A DNA stretch of 64,000 nucleotides from Cordylochernes scorpioides (Eukaryota; Arthropoda; Arachnida; Pseudoscorpiones; Chernetidae): NCBI GenBank assembly GCA_030710605.1, contig CP092874.1:20530611-20594610 (forward strand). The letters are read 5' to 3'. A program made the translations under genes and the position numbers. The first letter of the stretch is position 1. Each line of letters opens with the position of its first letter. Below, piece by piece: positions 12,291-60,563 of the stretch. Under the pieces are notes generated by a model, which was not told where the DNA came from, ran no database searches, and saw only the letters and a program-made list of their open reading frames with translations.

Positions 12291-12299
12291 ACAGTCTGT

Positions 12300-14040: not shown

Positions 14041-14650
14041 TAGCCTTACATCTAGTGTTTAATGTTCAAATATTTTTCCCTCTAATTCTTAAGAACAATT
14101 TCCCATAAGAATTTCTACTATGAGGCTTTAAAAATTAATGAAAATTTGATGATTGAGGAATATACTAAGTTGATAAAGAAATAGATCCTTTTCAATCATT
14201 TTAACATATGGCGTGTTGAGAAAGTGCGAGGTCCGAAAGCTCTCAATTAAAAAAAAATATTTTAAAAGAATTAATTTTGCACAGTAATTTATGTTATCAC
14301 AATAGAATATAAATATTTTGAAAACGTCTGGTTCATCCGTGGAAATTTTAAGGAATTCATGGTGAGGCTATTTAGAAAAGATGCATTTAAGTATACAAAT
14401 TTTTAAAAAGTTTTTTAGAACCAAGAACATAATTGCATATTTACCAATGGACGCAGCGAAACTGATTTATTCCATCGATGTCTAAAATATCTTTTGAGTT
14501 AAATATGATGCATTGACGTGCACGCCATCTGTGTGTTCGTAAATATAAACTATTTATTATAATTTCAATTGGCATCTATCAATAAAATTTGTATTATGAT
14601 GCACTAGCGCGTCATCTGTTATGATGTAATCTACCATCTGGTAGATATAA

Positions 14651-14698
14651 CTGGCGAAACCGCTGGGAGGGTTCACCACTGATGAGCCAGGCCCTCCC
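14651..14698 (+). repeat. Structured MITE module, allele A
   Basis: CTGGC (14651-14655) can pair with GCCAG (about 14686-14690), and GGGAGGG with CCCTCCC (14692-14698). The two helices interleave as an H-type pseudoknot. The allelic copy in haplotype B is at 41186-41233. Confidence 0.7.
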
Positions 14699-14875
14699 AT
14701 TAATTTTTCCATTGCAGTAAGGACAGTAGAAATTGTTTATTTTCAAAAAGAATCTTACGCGTCTAAAATAGTTTCGAATAAAAATTGTTGTAATTATTAT
14801 TTTAGGCAATAGTATATATTATACCCTAAGAAACATATTGCCAAAATATTTAAATTTATAGCGAGGCCGTTTCTT

Positions 14876-14977
14876 CAACAACAACAACAACAAAAAGCCT
14901 TTATTTAGGGTCACTGACCCTATACAGGATTCACCAGAGGTATGCATAAGAACAAAGCAGTGAGACAAAGGAAACAA
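14876..14977 (-). mobile_element. 102-bp (TTG)n-tailed retro-fragment, present only in haplotype A
   Basis: It is flanked by a 9-bp target-site duplication CCGTTTCTT (14867-14875 and 14978-14986). Haplotype B has a single CCGTTTCTT at about 41402-41410 and no insert. On the minus strand it ends AATAAAGGCTTTTTGTTG with more GTT repeats, a short-retroelement tail. Confidence 0.85.
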
Positions 14978-15332
14978 CCGTTTCTTTTAAAAGTAAAACA
15001 AATAAAATAAAGCTTATATGTCCATAGTTTGCTAAGATACCATAACCGGTATTCCATCCTTTATTGCCACATATATAAGCAGAATCATTCAATACAGTAT
15101 TAGAGCTCAAAAAAAAAAAAAGGTTCAGGTGAAAACATCGTTTCAGATTTAAACGGGCTTTCTAACGTTTATTTTCGATTCGGATGAAAAAGTGAATTGT
15201 GTTCATCGAAACGTTTGGGAAAATAAAATATTTCTTTCTGGTCAAGATTTCTTCATTTTACTGGCGAATTGGAAGTGTCGTGGCCAGGCTGCATCAATAA
15301 CTTCAATAAGATCTGTTTAAATTTGCATATAC

Positions 15333-15735
15333 ATTCATAAATGAAACTTAAGGAAGTGGAAAGTCTTTGATATCGCCGGTCGTCTATTATCATTATTTTT
15401 TTTTTTTAAGGAGACTGAGGAACATTTGTTCACATTTGGTTATATCATGTGTCTTCAATAAAGGTCACTGTAATATCATTCAGACTTATTGTCCCGATAT
15501 AGATGATAAAAGGTACAACTTCCTTAAGTTTTGTCTATGAGTGTATATACACTTGGTTATCTCGTGTCTTCAATAAAGGTCACTGTAATATCATTCAGAG
15601 TTATTGTCCCAATATACATGCTAAAAGGTACAACTTCCTTAAGTTTTGTCCATGAGTATCTTTCAGAGTTATTGTCTGAATCCCGATATACATGCTAAAA
15701 GGTACAACTTATTTAAGTTTTGTCCATTAGGGTAT
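15333..15735 (+). repeat. MITE-derived satellite array, about three units
   Basis: It starts with the left MITE end (AAACTTAAGGAAGTGG) and spacer, then repeats of the unit running from TTGGTTATCTCGTGT through AATAAAGGTCACTGTAATAT to CTTCCTTAAGTTTTGTC. Units are partly truncated. Its haplotype B counterpart is 41757-42265. Confidence 0.75.
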
Positions 15736-17035
15736 CTTTCAGAGTTATTGCATGAATTTGAGTGTACCTAAATAGAAAGTCATCTCTAAAGGAAGATTAC
15801 CAAAAAGCAATAGGAAACAAAAAAAATCAAATAAACAAAATCTACCTTACGTTTCTGTAGTCGCTTTAGAAAAAAAGACAGCGTTGGTTCTGGTAGACAA
15901 TAGGCACAAAATTGCTATCGATTTTTTTACCTACCTATCGCTTTATTATGTTCCACTTCACTAATAAGCATCTCTACACAAAGAAAGTTTCAACATTAAA
16001 AAAACTCTCAAATTAAAAAACTTGTTCCAATTAATGTTAAAGGATCTCTGGATTAAAAAAAATCCTCGCGTGGAGATTCTTAACAAAAGACTGAATATTT
16101 TACAAACCCTGCGGTCAATTTTTAATTTCTTTACACTTTTTTTTTTTATTGTTTTATTCTTCAAAATTGAAAATTGGGATTTTAAAACAATTGAGAAGTT
16201 ACTTTTATTTCTGTGAAATATCTTCTTTTTTTTTTAAATAAAGAATTTTTTATTTAATTCTCTCTGTGATAGTGTTCAGTTTCAATTTTAGGGTTAGCGC
16301 CTTTAATTAGAATCGATGTTGGGGGATATAGAAAAAAAATGGTTACAGGGTTGCCAAATTATAATTTGAAAAGATTGATTTCCTCCCCCTCTGTGAATAA
16401 TAAATTCACAGAACGTTGCTTTTGTCTTCTTCTCAGCTTACGCATCATCATAATCATCATTTTTGTTTAGAAACCGGAGAGAGAGAGAGGGAAGACCGAA
16501 AAAAAAATTGTTAAATCTAATTTTAATTTATCGTTTTACCATTAACATAGATTTTTATAATTACAACGCCTTCTCTGAATCGATATTGTTTTATTATATT
16601 TTGACCAGAATTAACTCTCTCTATCATTAGCCAGCCATTATATATTATAATGTTCAACATATATTTGGTTGAAAAATATTCATTTTTTTTAAGTCATTGT
16701 GTATGTGTGTGTTACTCGTGTTAAATTAATTATCTTTTTTAAATAAAAAAATCAACGAGAATAGTTGATATTTATTCCGATAGATGGCGCAAGCCATCAG
16801 CAACTTTCAGTTGCACGATAAGATGATGCTTTTTTCTTAATAAAATATCTTTTTTTTAGTTGTATTATTGAGTGACTCTGCAACAATGGTGCATTAAACA
16901 AATAGTATAAAAGTGGAATTATACTGGAATCAGTTTTCCCTAAAACTCCATAACCCTTATTCCATTATTCAGTCTAGTATATAAGTAGAATCGTCCAATA
17001 CAGTATTAAAGCTTCAAAACGGCAGTCTGATTAAA
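15736..17035. other. Gene-free stretch, haplotype A
   Basis: AT-rich intronic or intergenic DNA with long T and A runs and no supported ORF. About 16760-16840 contains one arm of a MITE (ATTCCGATAGATGGCGC) that is complete as an inverted pair at 47261-47430. Confidence 0.5.
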
Positions 17036-17094
17036 CTGGCGACACGCCGCAGGGAGGGTTCCCCACTGATGAGCCAAGCCATCCTATTTTTCAT
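17036..17094 (+). repeat. Structured MITE module, diverged
   Basis: CTGGCGACACGCCG, GGGAGGG, then CCCCACTGATGAGCC. The right arm has changed to CCATCC, which weakens the second helix. The allelic copy is at about 43585-43635. Confidence 0.6.
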
Positions 17095-17879
17095 CCCAGT
17101 AAGGATAATAGAAAGGTTGTTTTATTTGGTTTTAAAAGAAACATTCTTTCTTTATATGGTTAATTTTTACTTATATTTAAAAATAATCTTCTTTCTTATC
17201 TCCACTCAAATCACACTAAGGTATCAAGCTTGTAAAGCTTTTTGATGGTGTCTGCCGGGAAAGAGTAGAGCTCATCAATGGATGAGTCAATACAGATTGT
17301 TTTTTAAAAATAATAAATTCAAAGAGTGTTAGGCTAATGACCGAAGATTGGAACTCCTGGGAATGGAATAGATAATGTAGAACACTGAGACGGCTGTGTT
17401 GTGGGGACTTCATATGACATCGGGGAACACGACATATTTATTTAGAGTTGTATTCAAAATTCTAAGTTATTTATGCGAATTTTATTTCTAAAATAAACAA
17501 TAATTATACTTCCCTTACTGAAAATGGTCTACCATTGAACCTTCACAGCGGTTTCGCCAGTTTAAATAACCATACCACGCTAATATTATATTGGACTGTT
17601 TTGCTCATGTAACACGCTTTAATGGGGAATTTCTGGTGAAGGTATTTAATCAAACAATGGACGTAATCCTTAAGGAGAGAAATACAGAAGAAATATATTC
17701 AAATATTGTAAATTTGTGCCAGAAAGTGTGTCCTAATATTAATGATTTATCAGTTACAGAGACATACATGGTGCAATATTCCACATTTCCCTCCAGTTCT
17801 CAATAGTTTCAGTAAATACCTTCAACAAGAATTCCTCTTTAGAGCCGGCTATATAAACTAAATTGTCAAAAAAGAATAG

Positions 17880-18475
17880 ATTCAAAATCATCGCATTTAT
17901 ATCACATTCATAAACAAAACTTAAGGAAGTGAGAAGTATTTGATACGCCGGTCGTTTCTTTCTTTCTTTATTATTATTTTTTTTAGGAGACAGAGGTTGT
18001 TCGCATTTGGTTATCTCGTTTATCTTCAATAAAGGTCACTGTAATATCTTTCTGTGTTATTGTCTGAATCCAGATATACATGCTAAAAGGTACAACTTCC
18101 TTAAGTTTTGTCCAGGAGTGTATATACACTTGGTTATCTCGTGTGTCTTCAATAAAGGTCACTGTAATATATTTCAGAGTTATTGTCCCGATATACATGG
18201 TAAAAGGTACAACTTCCTTAAGTTTTGTCCATGAGTGTATATACACTCAGTTATATCGTGTGTCTTCAATAAAGGTCACTGTAATATATTTCAGAGTTAT
18301 TGTCCCAATATACATGGTAAAAGGTACAACTTCCTTAAGTTTTGTCCATGAGTGTATATACACTCAGTTATATCGTGTGTCTTCAATAAAGGTCACTGTA
18401 ATATATTTCAGAGTTATTGTCCCAATATACATGGTAAAAGGTACAACTTCCTTAAGTTTTATCCATGAGTGCACA
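17880..18475 (+). repeat. MITE-derived satellite array, about four units (haplotype A)
   Basis: Left MITE end at about 17892-17910, a spacer, then about four head-to-tail units of roughly 120 bp ending at a CTTCCTTAAGTTTT near 18446-18460. The allelic locus in haplotype B (44468-44690) has a single unit, so unit number is polymorphic. Confidence 0.85.
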
Positions 18476-19875
18476 GCTCTGTCACCGTTGTAGAGTCCGC
18501 ATGAAGTTGACCAGCTATAGAACTCAGTACACAGTAATGTTATAACAGTATATTGTAAAGAGACAAGTTGTGAGAGAGTAAAAACCTGGGCAAGTTTGAC
18601 GTATGGCAGATAAGCTGCCCACCGCAGGAAGCTGATAAGCCGACGTGATAACACTAATTAGCATACCACGGTTCTCTCCATCAGGAATTCTGGATCACCA
18701 TTGATTCACTCCTGTGAATTGTAACAATGGGGGACGCTAGAACAATCTCTACATCCCACACCGCGGTTCCTTATTGTGGATTTAAAACCTATCTCCTGGT
18801 AGTGTCTTGTACACAAAACCCATCTCCTATATTCTTCTTTAAACTCGATGTGGCTGTGATATAATGGAACGTCAAATCCCCATTGCGTACCGCTCTCCTT
18901 ATCCATAGCTTTGCTAACTTTTGTTTCACTTCTTTAAAAACAACTCATAATGTTTTAATTGTAGACAATCATCATGTTCGCGGGGAACAGGCTATGATAA
19001 TCATGGTGTGGATTAGTTAGAGACTGCCTTTACTGTAAGTACACCACCAGTCTACACATTTGAAAAACAGTTCGACTTTTGCACTTACAAATATAATACA
19101 AATGAAAACACCAAAGCGGGAATGTTTCTTTTTCACAAATAAATCAAACTTCTACTGTCCTTACTGCGATGAAAAAATATTGGGAGGGCTTGGTTTATCA
19201 TTGGTGAACCCTTCCAGTGGTTTCGTCAATTTAATCTATCAGACCGCTTCTTTAGAGCTCTAATACTGTATTGGTCCACAGAGAGACCATTTGACAAATA
19301 ACACAATTTTATTGACAGCTTGTCAATACTAGTAAACATTCACAGTCTCCGCACTTATTATATTTAATTAATATATAGTGGGAAAAAAGATAGTGGCAAA
19401 GATAAATAATACTAAAATTAGGTTTAATGATTGTTTACTCAAAATGTTTAATTGTGTTCATTGTTTATTTATTAATGACGGTATACCTCTCGTGTTAGGG
19501 GGGATGATACATCATTACGTTTTTAATCGCTATTTTTAATCATTAAAACGTCGTAAGCCTACTTTTTTATTTAACAGCCTTACACCATTTTGTGTAACAC
19601 GAATACAATTTTTTATTCCTGTGAAAAATAGACCCGTTGGCCAGTTAGAGTTTTTTTTTTCTCAACGTTTTGACAAAAATCTTTTGTCTAGGTCAGGAGA
19701 AATAAATAAAAAATAAAGCATTTAGCAAAACGTTATAAATTGTTCTGAGGTTATCGAATCGTTGAGAAAATAAATAAAAACTCTAACTGGCCGAAATGTC
19801 TATTTTTCACAGAAATATGAATACCGGCCAAGCAACCTCTATTTTCATGACAAATATAATTGTTAATCAATTAAA

Positions 19876-19921
<46 letters not shown>
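18476..19921. other. Gene-free stretch, haplotype A, with a slow-evolving part and a (TA)n run
   Basis: 18550-19060 is nearly identical to 44815-45300 in haplotype B, but short ORFs there (18706-18906, -) are in different frames in the two alleles. 19085-19262 is a minus-strand MITE carrying the structured module (19170-19235). 19877-19926 is (TA)n, the boundary of the Penelope-like insertion. Confidence 0.6.
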
Positions 19922-19929
<8 letters not shown>

Positions 19930-21623
19930 TAGAAACTATATAACAAAATTATAACAGTGATTCTAATTTTAAAACTTAAGGAGCAAACTGATAATAATGA
20001 TAACTTATATCAATTAGATTTGATTAGATTAGCAAGCTAAATCTAAATTAATTATAATAATAAATAGTTATTTAATTTTATAGTCCAGTTTTGTATTAAG
20101 ATTATCTTCACTATTATGATCATTTAAATTCAAATTATAAAATTTGTAAAATGTTATTAATTTGTAGATAGAGAGAGAGAAAAAAAAAATTCTTTACTTC
20201 TAATACATCCTCAAGTTAATTATATATTTATAATTAATAACAATAAAAATTAACAACGTAACGTCTATTACATCGGCTTTTACACGTCATTTAGACATAC
20301 TCTAATCCTATATATAGAATAATCGAAGAGAGAATATATATAATAGTTAGAAAAAAGAGAGAAAGACAGAACCATGCACTTTTAATCAAACTAATAATAA
20401 GGAAAAAAAAATTTTTGTAAAGAAGGTAGATAAGATTGTTAGTATATATATATATATTTTTATGATTTTATATTTTATCCTTTTTTTTTTTAAAGATTTT
20501 TAAAGGTTTTTTTATTTTATAATATGATTATAAATAGTTGTATTTAGTAATATATCTATAGTATGAATTAACATTTGTTATAAGTTTGGATATTATGTTT
20601 TGAAACCCTAATGGTAGACCAGACATACACAAAAAACTTCAAATTGAAATAAATTGGAAAAAGAGATCTGCTGGACCGGGGATCTTCAGATAAAAGTCCA
20701 ACGACATTTCACCCCTTCTTTATTATGTCATAGATCTCTTTTAAACCGGATTTTATGTGTTAATATTAAGTTGTTTCAGTGAAATATTTAAATGAACATA
20801 TATAACAGATACAAGTGTTAACAAATTCAAACTGTAAACCTACCTCGACCGCGGCGTCCTCCATTGTGAATATCTATTTCTGGCTGACACATGTTGCGGG
20901 AGGGGAATGTCCCCCCACATTTCAAATTTAGACCATTTATTCAGAATTTTTTTGAACAACAAGAAAATTAAAGAAGAAAGGAAAAATAGTTAATGGAAGA
21001 AAGCTGAATTTCATAATCTTTACAGCTAGTTATATCAAAATAACTGATTCAACACTTATTCATCTTTTAATATTCCTTTAAAAAGGCAAATTATAAGAGT
21101 TTAATAAAGCTATTAATTGTGCAAATTCATCTTTATTTAACTTCCATTTTCCTCCCCAGAAATTGGAGATTAAATAAAATGAACTTTATACTATAACACT
21201 TTAAAAATCTTGTGAGAATATCTTTTAATCAGTTATTTAATCAAAGTTTAATTAACTGTTAAAGATTATAAATTTGTATTAGTTAATATTAAGAGAAATT
21301 ATAGAAAGTTGAATTTATAAATGGATATTTCCATTTATTTTTTTTAAATATTTTATAATTGATATACTGTTGAAATATTTTACTTGTTTGATACTAAATT
21401 TGTTTTTAATAAATTCCATGTTTAAATTTTTAACATCTTCTATGAAATTATCTAATATATTATTTATTCTATAAAATCTTAGAAACTGACCATAATATAT
21501 ACCTTTACAGCAATTTAATGATATATTAGAATTCATATTACAGTATTTTATAATATTGAAATTATAATTACTCTTTTTATTATAAACTCTAACAGCACTA
21601 TTTGTAAGGTCTATATTCAAGTC
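19922..21623 (-). repeat. Penelope-like element: 3' pseudo-LTR copy (direct repeat 1)
   Basis: These 1.7 kb, read on the minus strand, hold the last part of the RT ORF and the 3' UTR of copy A. They are repeated almost base for base, in the same orientation, at 24183-25883. Such partial tandem repeats flanking the unique part are known for Penelope-like elements and are called pseudo-LTRs. Confidence 0.9.
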
Positions 21624-23750
21624 TAAAAAGTTAACTTTTTTGTTTCTATAAATTTTTTCATTGTTCTTAAGTTTCAAGTATTTAGGATATATTTCAGGTA
21701 TTAATTTTTTAAACTGTGGATTATTAAATATTATTATGTCATCTACATATCGGAATATTTGCCAATTAATATTATTTTGTAGAAAGTATTCTCTTTCGTA
21801 CCAGAACAATATTAGATTTGCTAATAACGGACTAGAAGAGGTTCCCATGGGAACGCCTTCTGATTGAATATATATTTTATTTTTAAATTCTATATAGTTA
21901 AAATTTAAAAATGTTTCCAGTAGAGTTTTTGCTGTTTTAAGATCTAATTTAAATGTTTTATATCTGTTATGAATAATTTTAATGTAGAAAGTTTTATCAT
22001 TAATGAATTCATTAAATAAATTGGTTATTTTATTATTTAGATCTCTTAAATTTATTTTAGAATATAGGTCCTCAAAGTCAAATGTGTGTACTGTTTCAAT
22101 GTTTGTCCAATTGTTCATTAAATAATTAATGATTTTTTTATTTGAGTCGATAAATTTATAATTATATTTATTAGTTAATTTATTTATAATAAATTGTAGT
22201 GTTGAAGCTAATTGTATATCAATATTTTTTATGACTGAATTTATACCAGATGTGATTGTTCTGAAAGAAATAGGTTTTTTGTGTAGTTTAGGAATTATAT
22301 AGAACTTTGGTATGTTTGGATTTTTGTGGTTATTATAAATTTTTAGTGAATTTTCAACATTTTTGATGTCTTTTTTGATTTTTGTGCCTGTAGTTCTAGC
22401 AAAAGTGTATTTATGATTATTATCAATTTCCTTTTTTAGTATATCGTGGTATAGATTTTTACAAATTAAAGATAAATTATTGGAACATTTATCTATAGGA
22501 GTGATAATATAGTCCTTCTGTAAATTAATTATATTTTCTTTAATAGAAGGAATGTCTGAATTGGGTTTTGTGTATTTAAGTGTATTATTATAATAATTTA
22601 TAATTTCCTTTTTATTATTATGTTTCCATTCCAGAAAAGTAAATTCTGGAATACTGTATTTTATACTAGTTTTATTTATGAAAATATCTATATCTTTTAA
22701 TATAGATTTAATTGTATTATTATAATTGTGTTTAATTTGAGGTATATATTTATACCCTTTATTTAAAATTTCTTGATATTCTGGATTTAAAAAAGAAAAA
22801 TTGCTAGTTAATATATGACCTGAGAACTTATATTTATCAATATAGTTGTTGCAATTACATTTAATTTTTTTAAAATTTGCCAAATTATTAATAAATTGGT
22901 TATAATTGCAAACTAAATTACCTATATTTTTATTGTATCTCCAGATTGTTTTGAAATTTAAATTTTTTATAGGGAAAAGATTATTGATGATTTGGTTATT
23001 AAAAATATCATTAAATTTAATATGATTAAATAAATTGTTATTAAATTTAATGATAATATTAATGTTATTAGTAGCTTGTTTAATTTTTCTGTATTTAAAG
23101 ATGTCGTGTGTGATATCTATTAATCTGTTAGTCAGATTATGAATTTTAATATATTCTATGAGTTTGATAAATTTATTATTATTTAGTTTAAATAATGTTT
23201 TAATAAATTTATCGACGAAGTTGTTAGTGTACATTTGTTTTGGGTCCAGTAATTCTTCAAATTCAATGTAACCTAATTTATTTGTAGTTTTACCTCTAGT
23301 TTTATTAGGTTTAGTTTTAAATTCATTTTTTTTGTATTTGCAACTGATTTCATAGGTTGAAATTTCTTCTGTTTGTGGTTTGTATGTGTAGTTTAATTCG
23401 TCGTTAAGTCCATAAGGGAATAATGTGTTGTGTTTATAAATGTAGTTGTTTTCTAATAATAGTCGTTGTTTTTTGTTTTGACATATGTCTAGTATTTCTA
23501 TCTTAAAGTTGTTAAAAGTATGTAATTGATTGTGTTCTTTCATATATATATTACCAATTGATTTTTTAGCGTGGTTTCTATGTAGGTTTATTCGTATATT
23601 TAATGGATTACAAGTTTGTCCTATATATGATAGTTGACAAATTTGGCATGTTAATTTATAAATAGTATTCACTAATTTACAACTAGTTGTTTGAAAAGTG
23701 TCATGGTTCTTAAGAGAGGGACAAGTTTGACAATTTTTTCTTAGGCAATT
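21315..23750 (-). CDS. Penelope-like (Naiad-type) GIY-YIG endonuclease plus reverse transcriptase
   Basis: One open frame of 811 codons from 23750 down to 21315. Numbering from 23750: a Cys-rich lead (CLRKNCQTCP, residues 2-11), then the GIY-YIG nuclease with IYKLTCQIC and SYIGQT (about 30-46), Arg53 in LNIRINLHRNH and a likely catalytic Glu100 in LLLENNYIYKHN. The RT follows: PKLHKKPISFRTI (about 487-500), motif A TFDFEDLYSKI (Asp558), motif B EGVPMGTSSSPLLANL (Met635), motif C YVDD (668-671) and KVNFLDLNI. The YVDD box and PK.HK block are Penelope-like rather than LINE. An N-terminal GIY-YIG is the permuted order of Naiad/Chlamys-type elements. There is no ATG near the start; a stop codon lies three codons upstream of the AAG|AAT acceptor-like junction at 23751/23750, so the start is probably supplied by splicing. 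An 8-T instead of 9-T run at about 21339 shifts the last dozen codons relative to the other copies. Confidence 0.92.
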   Translation of the reverse strand, partial: NCLRKNCQTCPSLKNHDTFQTTSCKLVNTIYKLTCQICQLSYIGQTCNPLNIRINLHRNHAKKSIGNIYMKEHNQLHTFNNFKIEILDICQNKKQRLLLENNYIYKHNTLFPYGLNDELNYTYKPQTEEISTYEISCKYKKNEFKTKPNKTRGKTTNKLGYIEFEELLDPKQMYTNNFVDKFIKTLFKLNNNKFIKLIEYIKIHNLTNRLIDITHDIFKYRKIKQATNNINIIIKFNNNLFNHIKFNDIFNNQIINNLFPIKNLNFKTIWRYNKNIGNLVCNYNQFINNLANFKKIKCNCNNYIDKYKFSGHILTSNFSFLNPEYQEILNKGYKYIPQIKHNYNNTIKSILKDIDIFINKTSIKYSIPEFTFLEWKHNNKKEIINYYNNTLKYTKPNSDIPSIKENIINLQKDYIITPIDKCSNNLSLICKNLYHDILKKEIDNNHKYTFARTTGTKIKKDIKNVENSLKIYNNHKNPNIPKFYIIPKLHKKPISFRTITSGINSVIKNIDIQLASTLQFIINKLTNKYNYKFIDSNKKIINYLMNNWTNIETVHTFDFEDLYSKINLRDLNNKITNLFNEFINDKTFYIKIIHNRYKTFKLDLKTAKTLLETFLNFNYIEFKNKIYIQSEGVPMGTSSSPLLANLILFWYEREYFLQNNINWQIFRYVDDIIIFNNPQFKKLIPEIYPKYLKLKNNEKIYRNKKVNFLDLNIDLTNSAVRVYNKKSNYNFNIIKYCNMNSNISLNCCKGIYYGQFLRFYRINNILDNFIEDVKNLNMEFIKNKFSIKQVKYFNSISIIKYLKKINGNIHL

Positions 23751-24182
23751 CTTAGCGAGTTTAAATTAACATAAAAGAGGTGCTAACACTAATATGTTTG
23801 TAGTTTTTTTTAGTTTTTTTAGTTTGTTATTCTTATGAATTTTTAAGTATATTTTTCTTAATTGTTTTTGTGGTGATAAAATTTGTAATAAATTGAATAA
23901 TTAATCTATAAATATATAGATATTACTGTTTGTTATCTGTTATATTTTTAAGAATAACTAATAAAAAAAACATCTTTAAACTAACTATACAATGAAAAAA
24001 ACAAAAGTTCTGAAGTTATTTTTTCTAGAATTACTTTTATAATTTACTTTTTAATAATCAAACAATGAAAGATAATTAAAATTTGTATGAAGATTTATTT
24101 ATATTAGAATATCTAATATAATTTAATTTGTATATTATGTTATATATAAAAGATATATCATAGAGCAAGCTCATATGAATTA
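23751..24182 (-). other. Penelope-like copy A: 5' region between pseudo-LTR and ORF
   Basis: AT-rich, with no ORF, between the upstream pseudo-LTR (24183-25883) and the coding region. It ends at a splice-acceptor-like AAG at 23753-23751, in phase with the ORF, preceded by a weak pyrimidine tract. Confidence 0.6.
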
Positions 24183-29303: not shown

Positions 29304-29382
<79 letters not shown>

Positions 29383-47430: not shown

Positions 47431-47539
47431 TTTATGAACCTTATCCCAGTACAATATCACATTTGTACTATTTAAAAAAAAAAAACATTTTCTATAGTTT
47501 TGTCAAAAACATCTAGATTAAGAAATGGAAGCATTAAAG

Positions 47540-47700
47540 TACGAGTGTTTCTTTTTAAATATAAGCGGCGAAACCGCTGGGAGGGTTCACCACTGATGAG
47601 CCAAGCCCTCCCAATATTTTTTCATCGCAGTAAGGATAGTAGAAGTTTGTTTTATGTTTAAAAAAGAAACCCTTGTGTTTTAATGCTTCCATATATTATG
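47540..47700 (+). repeat. MITE with structured module, allele B
   Basis: Module at 47565-47612 (GGCGAAACCGCTGGGAGGG ... GATGAGCCAAGCCCTCCC). Flanked by inverted arms around AAAGAAACCCTTGTG. Allelic to 39715-39880. Confidence 0.7.
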
Positions 47701-47781
47701 TATAGATGGAATGTTATCTCCTTACATCTAGCTTTGTTTGATACACATACATTTATAATACAATATAATGCGGCTTGTGAT

Positions 47782-48016
47782 TGTAAAACGACATTTGAAA
47801 ATTATCCCGCATGTGTTTCTTTTGAACGAAAAAATAGAAATTTATTTTAAAGGAGAAATAATGATTATTTCTAACCTTAGGGATGAAGTATGATAGGATG
47901 AATTGTGAAGAGTAATGATAAATAAGGTTAGAAATAATCGTTATTTCTCATCAAAATAAATTTTGATTTTTCGTTCAAAAGAAACACATGTGGGATAATT
48001 TTCACATGTCGTTTTT
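47782..48016. mobile_element. Palindromic MITE, allele B
   Basis: Allelic to 39383-39612: the arms read TGTAAAACGACATTTGAAAA and complement, with the central stem-loop reading CTAACCTTAGGGATGAA. Confidence 0.8.
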
Positions 48017-48833
48017 TACACACACACATATATTTGTCTCTCGTCAAAATTCCTATCTATATTTTGGTCATTGATTTAACTTATCCACTTAGCCAGCTAA
48101 ACATCTTTTTGGAAGTTTGTTAGGATTTTATTTGATCCTTTGTGGATCATGGCGTGCTGGTGCATCATATTATAAACATAATACAGTGTTGTGTGAATTC
48201 TAATATAAATACGATCAAATTATTCCGATGGTTTGAAATAGAAAACAAAAACTATAGTTCTTAATTTCACAAAAAGTTTTCTAATAAAATATATAAAGTT
48301 CTATAACGACATGTAAATTCAGAAACAAAACATTTGCAAGTTAAACATATAACTTTTATAAATTACAGTTTATTTTCTCTAAAAAAAGTTACATTTGCAT
48401 AAAGCAGTTCGGTGAACCAACAGAAGAAAAAAATCTGGTGAAAACACTTCGCTAAACTTGAGCAGTTATCGAAGTTATTATGTACATATGGGAAATATGC
48501 AAAGTTTGCTGGAAAGTTTTAAAGAAAGAGAACGAAAAGTTGTAAGAAAAGAATCTCTTGTGTGTGTTGGGAAACGAGAGATGAAAATCTGTCTATGTAA
48601 ATATGTACAAAAGATTTAAAGAGACAAAAAATTACTAATAGATGGAGTCTAGTTTTGGTGTCTATTTTGACAGGAAAGGCGACCTTCATTTTTTATCGAT
48701 AATTATCCTCCCTGCAAAATTTCCATCTATATTTTGGCCAGAGATTTGGTCTAGTTACTTTTACAGTTAAACAACTCTTTAGCAGATTATGAAGATCTCA
48801 TCAGATCCCTTGTGGATCTCATGAAAAAAAGCC

Positions 48834-48880
48834 AGCCCTGAACTGAAGAGGGCCATAGCCCTAAATCATGGTTTCCATGT
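48834..48880 (+). ncRNA. Degenerate hammerhead-like motif, allele B
   Basis: CTGAAGA (48843-48849), GGGCCATAGCCC as stem II, then TAAATCATGGTTTCC where GAAA is expected. One core base has changed compared with the allele at 38596-38565 (-). Confidence 0.4.
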
Positions 48881-49702
48881 GGACTATCCCAGCGGTTTCG
48901 CCAGTTTAATCTACCATACCGCTGTAATTTTGCATTTTCCTCCATTTTATATTCCAATAGTACGAACTTCCCAGTTGGCCAATGGTAGTAAACATTCCCG
49001 GCTTGACAGCAGACGATATGTCTCAGTGGAGCAGTCGAACCTCGTTGTCTCTGATATAAAACATTACATATCTGGGTCCTGGAAAAAATATTTGCATATT
49101 TCTCCAGTAATTTGATATCAATGGTAAACGTACTTTATGAATAGCTGACGATGACGTTTTTTTCTGGTTTGCATATTTTCACTATATCACCGGAGTTTTA
49201 TTCTTGTATGTACCAAAAGAGGCACCTCTCCCTTTAATTATGCATTACAACAATGCATCATGCTTATCATTCCAGTAAAAAGAAATAGTGCGGTGGTGAG
49301 ATAAGGAATGTGCTACAACACCAGTTTTGGCAAATAAAGATAAAAAGCCAACCACCAGCCAAATGATAAACATAAGGGATTGTTTATGTACATAATAAAA
49401 GGTAAGATACCTATTTTGGTGCATGAATATCATCCTTTATGTATACAACTTTATGTTGTATTTTCTTTTGTAGGAATATAACGTTACTTCCTTGTTTAAA
49501 AAGATCATTTAATTTCGTTTTTATAGTTTCCTTATTTGCATATAGGTTTTTAAATCACTTTTCTGTAATTCTTTTCGTGTTCATTATCATTTATATAAGA
49601 TTGGTGCAACAACTAGTGGCACTACAACACTGTTACATATAGTTACCTAATTGCATATACTCGTATAGATAAGTTACGCTGGCTCTCTACGAGAAGTATT
49701 TA

Positions 49703-49942
49703 TTGTGCCATCTGACCGCTCCCATTCCTATGAACTTGTGGACCATGGGATTAAAAAGAAAGGGGTCAGCTGAGGAAGAGATAGACGGGATAATAAACAG
49801 TCTGTTAACATCGGCGGAAAGTTGTTTCCGGGAGTTTGTGGATGATCCTGGAAGAAGGTACCAGAGAAGTTTGTCTTACCTGGACGGCTGTTGGCGAGGA
49901 AGATCCTTCTGGTGGCAGACATTAGAGACATCTAATCCTTAA
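49703..49942 (+). CDS. Small conserved ORF, allele B (unidentified)
   Basis: 79 codons if opened at the non-ATG TTG at 49703, or from ATG at about 49730 (MNLWTMGLKRKG). The last 33 codons are identical to the haplotype A allele (37161-37421, -). In-frame indels of about 15 and 6 nt separate the alleles in the middle. There is no recognised domain. Trp/Arg-rich C-terminus (DGCWRGRSFWWQ). Confidence 0.35.
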   Translation: MCHLTAPIPMNLWTMGLKRKGSAEEEIDGIINSLLTSAESCFREFVDDPGRRYQRSLSYLDGCWRGRSFWWQTLETSNP

Positions 49943-50269
49943 TTCTTCTAGCAGCTACTGGTGATACAGTACTAATGCTCAGCTCTATCTACATAGAACC
50001 CCCCTTGTTATTTAGAAGCCTTATACGCAAACAACGACCGCTGAAAAACCTCGTAACATTATATAGACCAAAATATGATATCTGTCCATTTTTAAAATTT
50101 GCATAAAAACGAGGCATTTCTCGAACATTTCTGTTACATAACGCGCAGACTGAATATGGTACTATACTGGATTTGAATAAAGAACGTCAACCTTTATACC
50201 GTATCTTAGGGACATACGACCATCATTATTACAATTGTACAGTACAAATCCTAACCATTATAAACTCAT

Positions 50270-50480
50270 GAACAAAACTTAAGGAAGTTGTACCTTTTAA
50301 CGTGTATTTATTATTATTATATTTTTAATTATATTTTTTATTCATTTTTAAATAGGAGAGAGAAGGTTCGAATTTACATATATGGGAAATCCGCCGTTAT
50401 ATAAGCAAATAAGGAGTGGTTTATGGTAAAAAAATATGAAACTTTTCCTCAGGTTTTGTCCATGAGTGTATATGTAAAAG
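50270..50480. mobile_element. Second MITE type with Tc1-like ends, allele B
   Basis: Starts with ACAAAACTTAAGGAAGTTG at about 50273 and ends at about 50472 with TTTTGTCCATGAGTGTA. Interior matches 36640-36842. Confidence 0.7.
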
Positions 50481-50989
50481 TTGAACTGCTCCCTATATAT
50501 GTAAATATGTGATGCACATTTTAGTAAAAGCAATCGCTAACTACCCACAATGATTATCATGTATTGTATCATGTGTATTCCAGATAAATTTTTTGAAATG
50601 ATTCTTTAGAGGCTATAAAGAAAGGTAAAGGTTCCCCAATAAACCAATACTTATCTATAGCTATGTCTCCTGTTAACTTGAAGTGGAGGGGGAACCGACA
50701 TCTTGAAGATTTCTTCTATTTTATAATTTTTAATTGCATCAACGTTTTCTTTGTGTTTGGGCTAAAGTTAAACTGGTTCTTGTAACACCAAGATAACTAC
50801 ATGCACACACAAGACTTCCACAAACTTCAATAACATTCTTAACTTTCGTTCGAAGGAGAAAATATTCTGTTTTATTTTGAAATGGTAAAATAGAATCTTC
50901 ATTCATAATTTAAATATCTAATTAGATGTCTGATAAATTCTCTGTCGTATGACAATATGTTAATATTCCGGCTATGCAAATATGTACTC

Positions 50990-51710
50990 TCCTGGTCAAA
51001 CTTAAGGAAGTTATACCTTTTATAATGTATTTCGGGACAATAATTCTGTGAAAGATATTACAGTGACCTTTATTGGAGACACACGAGATAACCAAGTGTA
51101 TATACACTCATGGATAAAACTTAAGGAAGTTGTACCTTTTAGCATGTATATATCGGGATTCAGACAATTACTCTGAAAGATATTACAGTGACCTTTATTG
51201 GAGGCACATGAGATAACCAAGTGTATATACACTCATAGACAAGACTTAAGGAAGTTGTACCTTTTAGCATGTATATCGGGATTCAGACAATTACTCTGAA
51301 AGATATTACAGTGACCTTTATTGAAGACATACGAGATAACATTGTTATTATAGAAGACACACGAGATAACCAAGTGTTTATACACTCATAGACAAAACTT
51401 AAGGAAGTTGTACCTTTTACCATGTATATCGGGATTCAGACAATTACTCTGAAAGATATTACAGTGACCTTTATTGAAGACACACGAGATAACCAAGTGT
51501 ATATACACTCATAGACAAAACTTAAGGAAGTTGTAATTTTTAGCATGTATATCGGGATTCAGACAATAACTCTGAAAGATATTATAGTGACTTTTATTGA
51601 AGATATACGAGATAACCAAGTGTGAACAAAATTTGCTCTGTCTCTTTTAGAAAATATACAACCGGTGACATCAAAGACTTCCTTAAGTTGTGCCCATGAG
51701 TGTATGCAGT
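50990..51710 (-). repeat. MITE-derived satellite array, allele B
   Basis: About five to six units of about 122 bp in reverse orientation, then the spacer (ACCGGTGACATCAAAGACTT) and left end at about 51700. Allelic to 35285-36125. Confidence 0.85.
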
Positions 51711-52079
51711 AGCTAGATTAGTTTGAATGGCCCAATAGCGAAGTTTCGATTTCTAAGTAAGTAAGATGCTTTTAAACTACCGGAAGACCCTAAATGATGA
51801 TGCTCTTGGTGATGTAATTGCAGAGGTGAAGATGGTGAGGAAGATATGCAAATAGGCACGCCAGAGACATCAAGGAAGAGAATGCCTCCATCAGGTCGTT
51901 ATTAGGGTGATGTGGGCTCCGCCTGGTGGCAGATAGGTGCATTATCTTGGGAGGATCCAATTTTAGAGAGAGGAGCGAGGGATTCTAAATAATTCAGGGG
52001 CACTTGAGGCATCGATCTAAACACCTGTTGCTGTGTACCTGGTCTGTTCATCTGGCTGGTTCCGGGATCTCTTGTGTCA
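51706..52079. promoter_or_regulatory. Slow-evolving, repeat-free block, allele B
   Basis: Reverse complement of 34912-35290 with very few differences. Octamer-like ATATGCAAATAGG at about 51845. Confidence 0.35.
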
Positions 52080-55000
52080 CCATATACTGCTTGGTATATA
52101 GTTTATTTCATCATATACTGCTTGTTATATGGATTATTTCATCATATACTGCTTGTTATATGGATTATTTCATCATATACTGCTTGGTATATAGTTTATT
52201 TCACCATATCCTGCTTGTTATATGGATTATTTCATCATATACTGCTTGTTATATGGATTATTTCATCATATACTGCTTGGTATATAGTTTATTTCATCAT
52301 ATACTGCTTGGTATATGGATTATTTCATCATATACTGCTTGTTATATGGATTACTTCATCATATACTGCTTGGTATATAGTTTATTTCATCATATACTGC
52401 TTGGTATATGGATTATTTCATCATATACTGCTTGCCATATGGATCATTTCATCATATACTGCTTGTTATATGGATTATTTCATCATATACTGCTTGGTAT
52501 ATGGATTATTTCATCATATACTGCTTGTTATATGGATTATTCCATCATATACTGATTGTTATATGGATTATTTCATCATATACTGCTTGTTATATGGATT
52601 ATTACATCATATAGAGGTTGTTATATGGATTATTTCATCATATACTGCCTGTTATATGGATCATTTCATCATATACTGCTTGTTATATGGATTATTACAT
52701 CATATACTTCTTGGTATATGGATCATTTGACATGTACTGGTTAGAATATGGATTATTTCATCATATACTGCTTGTTATATGGATTATTTCATCATATACT
52801 GCTTGTTATATGGATCATTTCATCATATACTTCTTGGTATATGGATCATTTGACATGTACTGGTTAGAATATGGATTATTTCATCATATACTGCTTGTTA
52901 TATGGATTATTTCATCATATACTGCTTGTTATATGGATTATTACATCATATAGAGGTTGTTATATGGATTATTTAATCATATACTGCTTGGAATATGGAT
53001 TATTTCATCATATACTGCTTGTTATATGGATTATTTCATCATATACTGCTTGGAATATGGATTATTTCATCATATACTGCTTGGTATATGGATTATTTCA
53101 TCATATACTGCTTGGAATATGGATTATTTCATCATATACTGCTTGGTATATGGATTATTTCATCATATACTGATTGTTATATGGATTATTTCATCATATA
53201 GAGGTTGTTATATGGATTATTTCATCATATACTGCTTGTTATATGGATCATTTCATCATATACTTCTTGGTATATGGATCATTTGACATGTACTGGTTAG
53301 AATATGGATTATTTCATCATATACTGCTTGTTATATGGATTATTTCATCATATACTTCTTGGTATATGGATCATTTGACATGTACTGGTTAGAATATGGA
53401 TTATTTCATCATATACTGCTTGTTATATGGATTATTTCACTATATTCCAGTTGTTATATGGATTATTTCATCATATACTGCTTGGTATATGGATTATTTC
53501 ACTATATTTAGTTGTTATATGGATTATTTCACTATATTTAGTTGTTATATGGATTATTTCACTATATTCCAGTTGGTATATGGATTATTTCACTATATTC
53601 CAGTTGTTATATGGATTATTTCACTATATTCCAGTTGTTATATGGATTATTTCACTATATTCCAGTTGTTATATGGATTATTTCACTATATTCCAGTTGT
53701 TATATGGATTATTTCACTATATTCCAGTTGTTATATGGATTATTTCATCATATACTGCTTGTTATATGGATTATTTCATCATATACTGCTTGTTATATGG
53801 ATTATTTAATCATATACTGCTTGTTATATGGATTATTTCACTGTATTCCAGTTGTTATATGGATTATTTCATCATATACTGCTTGTTATATGGATTATTT
53901 CACTATATTCCAGTTGTTATATGGATTATTTCACTATATTCTGCTTGTTATATGGATTATTTCACTATTTTCCAGTTGTTATATGGATTATTTCATCATA
54001 TACTGCTTGTTATATGGATTATTTCACAATATTCCAGTTGTTATATGGATTATTTCACTGTATTCCAGTTGTTATATGGATTATTTCATCATATACTGCT
54101 TGTTATATGGATTATTTCACTATATTCCAGTTGTTATATGGATTATTTCACTATATACTGCTTGTTATATGGATTATTTCACTATTTTCCAGTTGTTATA
54201 TGGATTATTTCATCATATACTGCTTGTTATATGGATTATTTCACTATATTACAGTTGTTATATGGATTATTTCACTGTATTCCTGTTGGTATATGGATTA
54301 TTTCACTGTCTTCCTGTTGGTATATGGATTATTTCACTATATACTGCTTGTTATAAGGATTATATCACTGTCTTCCTGTTGGTATATGGATTATTTCATC
54401 ATAAACTGCTTGTTATAAGGATTATATCACTGTCTTCCTGTTGGTATATGGATTATTTCATCATAAACTGCTTGTTATAAGGATTATATCACTGTCTTCC
54501 TGTTGGTATATGGATTATTTCATCATAAACTGCTTGTTATAAGGATTATATCACTGTCTTCCTGTTGGTATATGGATTATTTCATCATAAACTGCTTGTT
54601 ATAAGGATTATATCACTGTCTTCCTGTTGGTATATGGATTATTTCACTATATACTGCTTGTTATAAGGATTATATCACTGTCTTCCTGTTGGTATATGGA
54701 TTATTTCATCATAAACTGCTTGTTATAAGGATTATATCACTGTCTTCCTGTTGGTATATGGATTATTTCATCATAAACTGCTTGTTATAAGGATTATATC
54801 ACTGTCTTCCTGTTGGTATATGGATTATTTCATCATAAACTGCTTGTTATAAGGATTATATCACTGTCTTCCTGTTGGTATATGGATTATTTCATCATAA
54901 ACTGCTTGTTATAAGGATTATATCACTGTCTTCCAGTTGTTATATGGTGTTGGGAAAAGAATGTTATTTTTCTTATAGATTTATATTTTTTTAAATATAT

Positions 55001-55345
55001 GTAAATTTAATCCATTATAAGAAACATATTTGCCATATATAAATATTTATATGTATATATATTCGTGACAAAAAATAAAGTAGTTGACTGGTTTGAGTCG
55101 TGTGGTTTCTCGGCCCGCTCTCGAGAGGTCTACGCCTTGGTTGATACCTGCCTTAGACACTTCCGCGGATTTGACTTCTTGGGAATCGCTCTTCTCTACC
55201 TTTGAGATTCCACGGATTTTTTCCTCCCCGGGACCAGAATAAGAGACTTCGGGCGTCTGGGCAAAATAGAGCCTGGGCGCTGCGCCGCTGAACGCGACAT
55301 ATGGATTATTTCACTATATTACAGTTGTTATATGGATTATTTCAC
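52075..55345 (+). repeat. 31-bp minisatellite, about 94 units, interrupted by a solo LTR (haplotype B)
   Basis: Unit close to ATATGGATTATTTCATCATA plus TACTGCTTGTT, with blocks of an ACTATATTCCAG variant (about 53430-54000). 54341-54930 is a 62-bp higher-order repeat (two alternating 31-mers, about nine copies) that is not seen in haplotype A. All three plus-strand frames are open through most of it, giving spurious ORFs up to about 310 codons. Confidence 0.95.
54948..55299. mobile_element. 352-bp solo LTR inserted in the minisatellite (haplotype B only)
   Basis: Begins TGTTGGGAAAAG and ends GAACGCGACA (TG...CA). Flanked by a 5-bp target-site duplication TATGG (54943-54947, 55300-55304). Contains AATAAAG at about 55072 and a GC-rich 3' half. 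TGTTGGG starts and 5-bp duplications are common in BEL/Pao LTRs; that assignment is tentative. No internal retrotransposon sequence. Confidence 0.85.
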
Positions 55346-55472
55346 TGTCTTCCTGTTGGTATATGGATCATATCTCTCTGTAGGTGATAATTCAGTTTTA
55401 CTGTGTATCGGGTAATTTATAAAACATCTCACTGTATCCTGGCTGATAAAGGGACCATTTAACTGTGATATA

Positions 55473-55873
55473 CTATAAAATGAAAGGATTTAAAAGCACG
55501 AATGTTTCTTTTATACATATTACAAATTTCTACTGTCCTTACTGCGATGAAAAAATATATTGGGAGGGCTTGGCTCATCAGTGGTGAACCCTCCCAGCGG
55601 TTTCGCCAATTTAATCCACCAGACAGCTTCTCCGAGCTCTAATACTGTATTGGACGATTCTGCTTATATACGCAGTACTGAAGGATGGAATCTCAGAAAT
55701 GGTTCTCAAGAAAACTATGGACATAAGCTTATAGGACGGTAGACCGCTGGGAGGGTTCACTACTGATGAGCCAAGCCCTCCCAATATATTTTTTCAGCGC
55801 AGTAAGGGCAGTGGAAGTTTGTATTATGTATAAAAGAAACATTCGTGCTTTTAAATCCTTTCATTTTATATGT
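55473..55873. mobile_element. Palindromic MITE with paired structured modules, allele B
   Basis: Arms of about 130 bp with modules at 55560-55607 (-) and 55745-55785 (+). Allelic to 32989-33394. Confidence 0.8.
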
Positions 55874-56059
55874 ATAGATGGCGCGTTATTGCTTTGTGTT
55901 AATTTGTGATAGTTGTTTTATTAATAGACTCCACTACTATACAAATTAATTATACTCCTCATATAGATGGGATATTTGTGTCATGAATTCAAATATTAGT
56001 TTTAACTTAATCTTGAAACATGAAAGCCAACTCCGTGTAGTAATCTTTAATGGAGCTTC

Positions 56060-56262
56060 TTTTGTTGTAAATCTTTGATTTTGACGGTCGTCTATGTTTT
56101 TTGTTTGTTTGTTTTTCTTTCGAAGGAGACAGAAGTAATTTTGTTTACGCTTGATTATCTCGTGTATCTTCAATAAAGATCACTTTAATAGCTTTCAGAG
56201 TTATTGTCCCGATATATACATGGTAAAAGGTAAAACTCCCTTAAGTTTTGTCCATGAGTGTA
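56060..56262 (+). mobile_element. Single-unit Tc1/mariner-type MITE, allele B
   Basis: Allelic to 32595-32800. Right end TTAAGTTTTGTCCATGAGTG at about 56241-56260. Confidence 0.7.
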
Positions 56263-56447
56263 AATTAATCGCTGTGAAATGCTATAGTACTCAATGAGTG
56301 AAGAGAATAGCCAATAGATGTCGCCATTGTCGTAGAGGTGACGTTTGGAACGCTTTCATAGAATAGATGACGGACATTTAACAAGTTGACCGCTATAGAC
56401 AGGTGACCGGCTTAAAGAAGTGACCTCTGTTTACAGGGTTTATTATA

Positions 56448-56715
56448 CAAGGTATGATTAGATAATTCGGGGAATTAGTCAAAAAAAAATTCTGAAAGAG
56501 TTTTCGAAAAATAAAAATATCCATCATAATCACGAGACCTCGTTCTACTAGAAAATATTCATATCTTTTCGAAATCTCAAATAATAATAATTTTATAAAC
56601 ATTTTTTAAAGAAATGAAACAAAGGCGCGGCGTATTTTTTACAATGGATCTTAAAAGTGAACAAATATATGCATAAATTAGGCCAAAAATTAAGAAAAAT
56701 GGCGTCAGAAACTTG
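56448..56715. mobile_element. 268-bp insertion with TATA target-site duplication (haplotype B only)
   Basis: Starts CAAGGTATG and ends ...ACTTG, with TATA at 56444-56447 and 56716-56719. Haplotype A has a single TATA at the empty site (about 32419). Terminal inversion is only CAAG/CTTG. No coding capacity. Class unclear. Confidence 0.7.
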
Positions 56716-57196
56716 TATATCTCTATTGAGACGTTCCCGGTAGATCACCCATAATTTCACTTAAAATAAACAGAAAAAATCCCACATAAAATAACCTTTA
56801 TATTAAAATTAATCTCATGAGGGCTCCCTCTTTTTATATGAGGGAATATAAGCTTCCCGAAATAACCCAAAGACTCTCCCATATTCCCGTATTTTTATCG
56901 TCTTTCCTTAATCCAAAACTTTAATCTGTAAAATGGAATAAGTCTCCCCCCGCCATGTCATAAAATATGGGATTTGGAAATAATGGTAGCTCTTCTTCCT
57001 CTTTTATTTTTACAACGATCACAATAAATATATTGAAGTCTAATATGTAAAATTGTTTGAAGTTCTATATATATTTTACAAAATTTATTTTGTCCATTAT
57101 ATAAATTTATATATCAAAAATTTCCCTTCCCCTTGAATATAACAAAATATTCTTAAAACTTAATTCTGTTGACACACATTAAATATGTTATAACAC

Positions 57197-57240
57197 CTTG
57201 ATAAAGGTTGGCGTTCAGCCAACTGAAATATTGGTAAAAT
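57197..57240 (+). repeat. TTGATAAAG / GTTGGC-GCCAAC stem-loop motif
   Basis: A 6-bp perfect stem (GTTGGC, loop GTTCA, GCCAAC) lies between TTGATAAAG and TGAAATATTGG, near a TAAAAT end. Relatives occur at about 30380-30410, 30990-31030, 31880-31910, 58060-58110 and 58681-58725. The layout resembles a hammerhead (CTGATGA-stem II-GAAA) in which the core has decayed. Confidence 0.5.
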
Positions 57241-57297
57241 AAATTATATTTTGATCCAATATATGCCTTTTTAATTTTATATATATACTAGCGAATG

Positions 57298-57984
57298 TAC
57301 CCGGCTTCGCCCGGTTTTTACCCGAGTAAAGGTTTGTCTAACGAACATTTGTTAAAACAATTCTCTATAAACTTATAAAAAAAGAAAGATATATTTTGAT
57401 AATTTGAAACTCGTAAATTTGAATCTCTCGATAAAGTGAACATTTTTTCCCGGTCCCTTGAAAAATACTCGATAAGTTGAATAAAATCAATATTAATTGG
57501 TTCCCTCGGTAATTGGAAGTTAAAGGAATAGTATCTTGCCTTGGAATTGTATCATTATTCTTGTCTCAAATAAATTGCCGTGTCATCCTGAATTTTGTCT
57601 TTCCTAATTTTCTACATTACAAAATCATCATTTTATCTATTCTCCCAATATATATATTGTAGATAAATGATAAAATTATCTTTGACTTGTGCGCAATTAA
57701 TAGGTAGATAATCTTACTTTTGATAAATTATCTTTAAGATAATAAACTTAGTGATAATAAAACTTATAGATAAAAAAAAACTTGTTATCCCCCGCTAGGG
57801 GGCGCTGCTTGCGAGTTAAATCTACAAATCTGCAAATAACTCTAAGGATATTCAAGATATTCATGAAATTATTTTTCGAAAACCTTCCCGGGTATATACC
57901 TAATAATATCCCAAAATTTCACGGCGATTGGATGTATGGTTTTTGAATCTATAGAGTACAGACATTCAATTATATATATATAGA
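57298..57984 (-). mobile_element. Non-autonomous Helitron, allele B
   Basis: On the minus strand it starts TCTATATATATATAATTGAA (57984) and ends with hairpin ACCGGGCGAAGCCGGGT and CTAG (57301-57298). Allelic to 31105-31809. Confidence 0.85.
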
Positions 57985-58779
57985 TTTATAAAAATAGATC
58001 AATCCAAACTTAAATCATCAGATAGTAAAATAGGCATATATTGGATTGAATAAAAGATTTATTTGCCAATATTTCAGTTGGCTGAATGCCAACCTTTATC
58101 GAGGCATTACATTTTTTGCATACACAAAAAAGGGCATACATAAAATTGCAATAAGGAATGATAGAAGTAGCTGACAATGGAAAATCTGGAAACTTAAAAG
58201 TTTGACTCAGGGGGTTTCAGTGTTCAAAATGGAATATATCCCAGAAAGATATAATTCGTCAAAACCGGTACGACGTCAGAACCCTTCGCCTTTTAAAACC
58301 CGACGTATTGTGTGGAGAGACAGTTTTTTTAGAGTTCCTGTGTGAAGTGAAAGGACATACACATCTGGGGGGCCCTTTTTCTCTTTGTCAGAAATGATGT
58401 CTTAATTTGAAGTTATCTTTTCCCTGTAGGCTTAAACATTTCGGTGGCCACGACTGCTAACTTTAGATCACACAAACCTATTGATATATTTATCAGTATC
58501 TTCATTTATTTAATCAAATGGTTATTTAATTATATACTCTTTTAATTATTATTATTATTATTATTATTAAATATAACAATTATAAATATATTTTATATAC
58601 CGTGAAAATTCCATCAGATAGTTTCTTACTTTGATCTTGTATAGCATGAGTGGATCAGACGTGATTTAGTTTAAATCAAAAGCCTTGATAAAGAGAGGCG
58701 TGTTGCCCCTAGAAATATTGGCTGTTTAATAAATTTAGATCCAATATATGCTTTATATTTATTTATATATTGATATATG

Positions 58780-59050
58780 TGTAGGATGGTTGTTGATGTG
58801 CTGTGTTGGTGTGGCTTGTGGAAAGGCTGCTGATAAAATTATAATTAAAATTAATTTATTTAAAGCAAGAAATTATAAAGAGAAAAGAAGCAACGGTTGA
58901 AATAACGGCCGCCGCACTAGCCTTGTTGTTTACCGCTAAGTGGCCAGCGTCTCTGATGACGTTCCACGCGCATGCGTAGTGAAGTGTTGACGCCCGCCGA
59001 TGCCGAGGCCGTCTTAGTTCGGCTCGCTGAAGCAAAGTGTAGTCGCCACA
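58780..59050. mobile_element. 271-bp solo LTR-like insertion (haplotype B only)
   Basis: Begins TGTAGGATGG and ends GTCGCCACA. TATG is duplicated at 58776-58779 and 59051-59054, and haplotype A has one TATG at the empty site (about 30311-30319 on the other strand). The 3' half is CpG-rich. TG...CA ends and a 4-bp duplication fit an LTR. Confidence 0.7.
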
Positions 59051-59188
59051 TATGTATATATAAGGTCGCCTCTCGGGTCAAAATAAACGTCAAAACTAGA
59101 TACCATCTATTGACCGTCACCACAAACTAGCGGCCTCGGGTCGGTGACAAAGCCAACAACACCAGCTTTGGAAAATCTTCACCCTGGA

Positions 59189-59222
59189 GACCATGGTTTC
59201 AGGCTAATATCCCTCTTCAGGC
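59189..59222 (-). ncRNA. Hammerhead-like motif, CUGAAGA type
   Basis: The minus strand reads CTGAAGA (59220-59214), a GGG...CCT stem II, GAAA (59200-59197), the self-complementary ACCATGGT and C before the expected cleavage point, then TCCAGGG as stem I strand. Allele at 30149-30185 (+), where CCATGG has become CCATAG. Confidence 0.5.
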
Positions 59223-59416
59223 CAGAGCTTTGCTTTTATAGATAAATTTTGTCGGGAGGATATTCATCTATAAAAATAATAGTCACCTCTCCCGTCAAAA
59301 TAGCCGTCAAAACTAGAAGCCATCTATTGCGGTGATAGTCAATAGATGGTGTCTTAGAGCTTTGACGTATATTTTGACGGGAGAGGTGCACTTTATACAT
59401 AGAGAGAGAGATTAAT

Positions 59417-60560: not shown

Positions 60561-60563
60561 CGA

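Follow-up and report, generated by a model that had tools for sequence, protein, structure and literature searches.

An apparent duplication with inversion in the Cordylochernes scorpioides assembly is very probably a heterotype false duplication

A 64,000-nucleotide stretch of DNA from the pseudoscorpion Cordylochernes scorpioides (bases 20530611-20594610 of scaffold C12, here called the window) carries one long segment twice, with part of one copy in reverse orientation. Does this arrangement belong to the animal, as a duplication and an inversion, or to the assembly? The evidence points with high confidence to the second answer: the apparent duplication and inversion are very probably a heterotype false duplication produced by assembly and scaffolding, and not biology. 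In such an error, as the passages cited from Rhie et al. describe it, diverged parental haplotypes are built as separate contigs and both remain in the primary assembly (Rhie et al. 2021, PMC8081667).

The assembly comprises 2.62 Gb in 24 scaffolds; a COX1 search of it gave a single, degraded copy, on C3. The analysis covered the window and 100 kb on either side of it, with coordinates kept relative to the window and negative numbers lying upstream. Runs of N divide this region into the contigs c1 (-96992 to -50797), c2 (-50696 to 29854), c3 (29955-40794), c4 (from 40895) and c5 (from 93270), followed by c6. Two haplotypes, X and Y, are distinguished among them, and the layout inside the window is as follows:

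1..29854, plus strand: contig c2, haplotype X, starting about 50.7 kb upstream of the window, unbroken between 14373 and 14374 and ending at a gap of 100 N.
14374..29854, plus strand: first part of copy A, haplotype X, colinear with 40895-46609.
29855..29954: scaffold gap of 100 N between c2 and c3.
29955..40794, minus strand (placed in reverse): contig c3, the second part of copy A, haplotype X; its reverse complement aligns to 46610-59416.
40795..40894: scaffold gap of 100 N between c3 and c4.
40895..64000, plus strand: contig c4, haplotype Y, running on beyond the window; its first base continues the reverse complement of the upstream contig c1.

Copy A, made up of 14374-29854 and the reverse complement of 29955-40794, is colinear with copy B at 40895-59416. 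BLAST pairs 14376-19911 with 40897-46155 and 29369-29854 with 46125-46609 on the plus strand, so the parallel between 14374-29854 and 40895-46609 in the original prediction holds except for an insertion of 9.5 kb. The reverse complementarity of 29955-40794 and 46610-59416, which had also been proposed, was recovered as a reverse alignment from end to end, and both gaps are exactly 100 N long, as had been noted. When the end of c2 is joined to reversed c3, the alignment crosses from 46609 to 46610 with zero bases missing or overlapping, precisely as predicted for the inverted contig. Compared over three sections of the pair, A and B differ by substitution at 210/4880 (4.3%), 289/5126 (5.6%) and 135/3416 (4.0%) positions; the figure from a BLAST chain of the whole pair, which takes in tandem arrays, is 6.2% over 13,241 bases. 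A single 2-kb piece (14374-16374) searched against the whole assembly was seen directly in two places: A and B are the only sites of long matches, a count that is a lower bound. The remaining rows of that search consist of a family of repeats with units of about 115 bp on many scaffolds and of scattered short matches, 46-126 bases long, to other parts of the query.

The original prediction took these copies for a single haplotype bubble at 14374-59416 with one flipped contig, beyond which unique sequence resumes. Within the limits of the 64-kb window that description is correct, and the haplotype-like copies and the flipped contig stand. The single bubble does not, because both of its flanks are paired outside the window. 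On the left, the sequence of c1, once reverse-complemented, runs colinear with c2 between about -50692 and 14373, with 4.8% substitution over 30,288 aligned bases (3.4-6.5% in five parts). On the right, c4 beyond 59417 is colinear with c5, with 5.3% substitution over 18,190 aligned bases, and the sequence from 59417 therefore recurs where it was expected to be unique. A single bubble with unique flanks is thus refuted by the duplication of those flanks, and it is scarcely conceivable as an account of the locus. Flipping 29955-40794 alone would leave the scaffold wrong, as the two haplotypes interleave over about 219 kb.

The way in which the pieces fit together is informative. Reversed c1 joined to c4 crosses from 14373 to 14374 with zero bases missing, and reversed c3 joined to c5 crosses from 59416 to 59417 in the same way; with the join of c2 to reversed c3, the tiling is base-exact at all three joins tested. 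Because zero bases were lost at the three joins that could be checked, the pieces were once continuous. Two tilings are read directly from the alignments: X, consisting of c2, reversed c3 and c5, and Y, consisting of reversed c1 and c4. Their phase follows from the contigs themselves: c2 bridges the point at which c1 and c4 meet, and c4 bridges the two joins of X. The scaffold order from c1 to c5 alternates between X and Y, and the approximately 219 kb of scaffold from -96992 to 122102 stand for a single locus, whose length is about 120 kb in X and about 92 kb in Y. The whole window belongs to these two interleaved haplotypes, and reduced read depth would be expected across all of it.

The positions of the switches, also observed directly, separate the false duplication from the rival view that a segment truly was duplicated in tandem and that one part was later truly inverted. 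That view would explain why the copies are adjacent and about 5% diverged, as in an old duplication. However, all four junctions from c1 to c5 at which copy or orientation changes lie at runs of N (the junction between c5 and c6 is similar in look, but the match there is mixed with a tandem array). The left flank has its twin, inverted, beyond its own far end, an arrangement impossible from one tandem event. Because copy and orientation change only at runs of N and because the partner of the left flank has this position, the arrangement is most unlikely to be a true duplication; the base-exact tiling over three joins and the similar pairing of highly conserved genes on other scaffolds, described below, also speak against one. 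A real duplication with inversion was rejected on the switches, the exact tiling and the far-side twin, and is extremely unlikely.

A heterotype false duplication could have come about in a few steps. Parental haplotypes that differ by about 5% and by many insertions would have led the assembler to retain both. Contigs of both haplotypes would then have been ordered into one scaffold, alternating and partly reversed, with N gaps between them. Each haplotype was continuous to begin with; its present breaks may stem from a scaffolder's misjoin correction, or from breakage at nodes of the assembly graph, the pieces then being adjacent graph edges. The copies would in that case be alleles of one individual.

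Insertions present in only one copy are a further difference between the haplotypes. The original prediction counted six in the A/B pair, three per copy, and all of them were recovered by alignment:

14867..14977: X-only insertion of 111 bp with a perfect 9-bp flanking repeat.
19880..29396: X-only compound of Penelope-like elements lying within a run of (TA)n; Y lacks about 9.46 kb of it (19912-29368).
38156..38479: X-only insertion of 324 bp with a tRNA-Gly gene at 38262-38332 (54 bits).
54952..55298: Y-only insertion of 347 bp at the edge of a 31-bp array.
56446..56715: Y-only insertion of 270 bp.
58780..59056: Y-only insertion of 277 bp.

Target-site duplications or defined ends had been proposed for these insertions. 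A clean target-site duplication (9 bp, in register) was found for the 111-bp insertion, but not for the other five. The 324-bp and 277-bp insertions have A+T-rich flanking matches of 6-7 bp that are shifted by two bases relative to the register, the 270-bp insertion has a flanking match of 4 bp only, and the 347-bp insertion has a 6-bp match that is ten bases out. In the Penelope-like compound the BLAST pieces break at 19911 and restart at 29369, both abutting Y at 46125-46155, and the (TA)n run makes a target-site duplication unreadable. Pieces of the repeat in the 324-bp insertion, one of them with part of the tRNA, occur elsewhere in the 264-kb region, some nearby.

Genes also allow the copies to be compared. 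One exon in the window is doubled, and it lies outside the 14374-59416 bubble:

11430..11702, plus strand: region containing an exon, at about 11460-11702, that encodes the PAS domain of an EAG (KCNH1/KCNH5-type) potassium channel; its best PDB matches are to KCNH1 (E 2.9e-27).

The twin of this exon is inverted and lies upstream of the window in c1. The two exons differ at two positions, both synonymous, and the sequence before the exon differs from that in c1 by a 2-base indel and by many further differences. When small frames in the region were scanned for an excess of synonymous changes, only short ones were met, and the divergence values alone were used.

Three conserved families, PRPF8 (PF08083), CRM1_C and Cpn60_TCP1, were searched for in the whole assembly. 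PRPF8 was found in exactly two places, both on scaffold C8, oppositely oriented and separated by 94 kb. Over 1898 codons this pair has 68 synonymous and 0 non-synonymous differences, and outside the frame it differs at 41 of 662 bases. The two CRM1_C loci found, one on C2 and one on C12, are both unpaired. Cpn60_TCP1 has nine loci with an exon scoring 90 bits or more, two of which are same-scaffold pairs; matches below 90 bits, namely one on C17 and five first-exon matches on C15 (some of these close together), were excluded from the count. The pair on C2 (3.73 and 3.84 Mb) is inverted with the members about 104-114 kb apart, and 82 of 2802 bases differ; in four stretches read in what the author takes for the true frame, 24 differences are synonymous and none is non-synonymous. 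The pair on C6 (94.50 and 94.66 Mb) is direct with the members about 143-163 kb apart, and 21 of 2990 bases differ, with 3 synonymous differences and 1 non-synonymous in stretches whose true frame is likewise the author's reading. Summed over the three gene pairs, the coding differences are 95 synonymous and 1 non-synonymous. Same-scaffold pairs thus make up three of the 12 gene loci counted; the fault recurs beyond the bubble and beyond this scaffold, but is patchy. As a separate observation, the single open frame that contains PRPF8 runs for over 2,300 codons, and the gene is apparently intronless over that stretch.

Three results weigh against a false duplication of haplotypes. Nine of the 12 conserved gene loci are unpaired, a sign of the patchiness of the fault. 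The pair on C6 is only 0.7% divergent, so divergence differs among loci. The alignable share of the paired stretches, 47.5-64.2% in X and 66.6-72.7% in Y, implies high divergence for alleles. The same figures bear on the possibility that the interleaved sequences are homologues of different origin (an F1 hybrid, a hybrid clone or an allopolyploid) and not alleles of an outbred diploid, which would leave the artefact the same and change the biology. A hybrid origin would suit the substitution of about 5% between the copies and how poorly they align. A uniform hybrid, however, is not expected to vary from 0.7% in the C6 chaperonin pair to 4-6% here, nor to have most of its counted gene loci single, and this origin appears highly improbable. 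It is also doubtful that haplotypes about 5% substituted and a quarter to a half unalignable reflect either a hybrid individual or one of the most polymorphic animal populations, with a Penelope-like element of the N-terminal GIY-YIG type that is still spreading and so occurs on one homologue only. Heterotype false duplication is the explanation retained here.

The largest of the six insertions has an internal structure of its own:

19927..24184, minus strand: longest unit of the Penelope-like element, 4.26 kb, 22% G+C.
21315..23765, minus strand: frame of 816 amino acids with a GIY-YIG endonuclease followed by a reverse transcriptase judged telomerase-like from its modelled structure.
24185..25889, minus strand: 5'-truncated direct copy in partial tandem, 1.7 kb (24183-25889 is 99.5% identical to 19922-21629).
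25873..29303, plus strand: inverted partial copy, 3.4 kb, with a frame of 762 amino acids (99.4% identity with 20054-23486 read in reverse complement).

Comparison of the 816-residue protein with public proteins gave ten relatives, the best seven being 24-33% identical over 65-98% of the length; these seven were aligned, and the three with 35-38% coverage were excluded. A Pfam search of the protein gave no domain up to E 10. Its GIY-YIG columns align with those of the seven relatives, which Pfam lists as GIY-YIG above the cut-off in three cases and below it in four. The order of domains is a CX4CXXC motif upstream, GIY-YIG at about residues 33-111 and reverse transcriptase at about 420-720. 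In a Foldseek search of the PDB with the structure model (mean pLDDT 68.5), the top 16 among the best 50 of 748 matches are telomerase catalytic subunits, with modest TM-scores by query of 0.28-0.38, and on this model the reverse transcriptase is telomerase-like. No methionine lies ahead of the endonuclease in the frame, and the start may therefore be in an upstream exon.

The assembly contains at least 55 scored copies with 99-100% protein identity. The open frame has 810-828 residues in 54 of the 55, and no internal stop is listed in 38 of the 55 rows. This number is a lower bound, as 34,784 candidates passed the first look, and some of the 55 may be haplotype doubles. The near-identical copies and the absence from Y are signs of a recent burst of a young element.

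Further repeats in the window are the following:

1..8209: part of an X-only block of 11.4 kb (in the interval from -3191 to 8210, X has 11,400 bases for which Y has no counterpart), with frames of retroelement reverse transcriptase and RVT_1 matches at 1124-2431 and 5384-5869.
33497..34914: 31-bp minisatellite with 45.9 copies in X; the array in Y, at 52077-54925, has 92.1 copies.

Related-looking arrays with units of about 115-125 bp are present at 15432-15757, 18010-18471, 35374-36129, 41860-42296, 50998-51623 and 60710-61383, and the array at 15432 is found on many scaffolds. A fragment of eukaryotic SSU rRNA lies at 63005-63364 on the minus strand (90 bits, model positions 1178-1607). This fragment, the KCNH1-type channel exon and the sorts of retroelement present in the window are taken as marks of animal DNA.

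If the scaffold is taken literally, it contains a doubled ion-channel exon and the assembly doubled PRPF8 and chaperonin genes, together with invented inversions and false tandem duplications. The warning in the original prediction that counts of genes, tRNAs and copies from this scaffold mislead is justified, since both haplotypes are present in one scaffold. The assembly should be purged or phased before it is used for work on gene families, synteny or copy number.

Penelope-like elements of the Naiad/Chlamys type have a GIY-YIG domain N-terminal to the reverse transcriptase and a C-rich motif upstream; Craig and colleagues reportedly described such elements with N-terminal GIY-YIG in 2021. 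The element in X shares with this type the endonuclease before the reverse transcriptase, a telomerase-like reverse transcriptase, and partial tandem and inverted copies. By domain order it is probably of the Naiad/Chlamys type. Its unit is very A+T-rich, at 22% G+C, and the assembly contains at least 55 near-identical copies. Hammerhead ribozymes are common, though not universal, in Penelope-like repeats, and an Rfam search of the element gave no hammerhead up to E 5. A hammerhead ribozyme is mentioned for Penelope-like elements in the part of PMC11167929 consulted, and the classification table in PMC10941475 gives Naiad and Chlamys as names only.

A similar arrangement is found in the rotifer Adineta vaga, where, in the passages cited from PMC3846280, a full Penelope copy and a 5'-truncated copy stand in partial tandem with inverted partial copies at an end. 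In those passages a Penelope-borne insertion is also present in one allele only, and some alleles are 5% diverged, as here. Unlike the direct repeat of 1.7 kb and the inverted repeat of 3.4 kb in the present element, the pseudo-LTRs described there are about 180-220 bp (PMC3846280).

The arrangement of the window as a whole resembles the class of Rhie et al. in that two copies diverged at an allelic level lie on separate contigs in one primary scaffold, copies switch at gaps, and some conserved genes are doubled elsewhere (PMC8081667). According to the sections of that paper drawn on here, heterotype false duplications can be mistaken for duplications of exons, genes or segments and are commoner at higher heterozygosity; tests for the class are described there as well (PMC8081667). 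A case of this class would be expected to show reads at half coverage, with variants specific to each haplotype. The present case differs from the description in those sections by its base-exact tiling, by the alternation over about 219 kb and by the reversal of two of the five contigs, c1 and c3 (PMC8081667). The class of error is ordinary and already known; its extent at this locus is wider than a window of 64 kb reveals.

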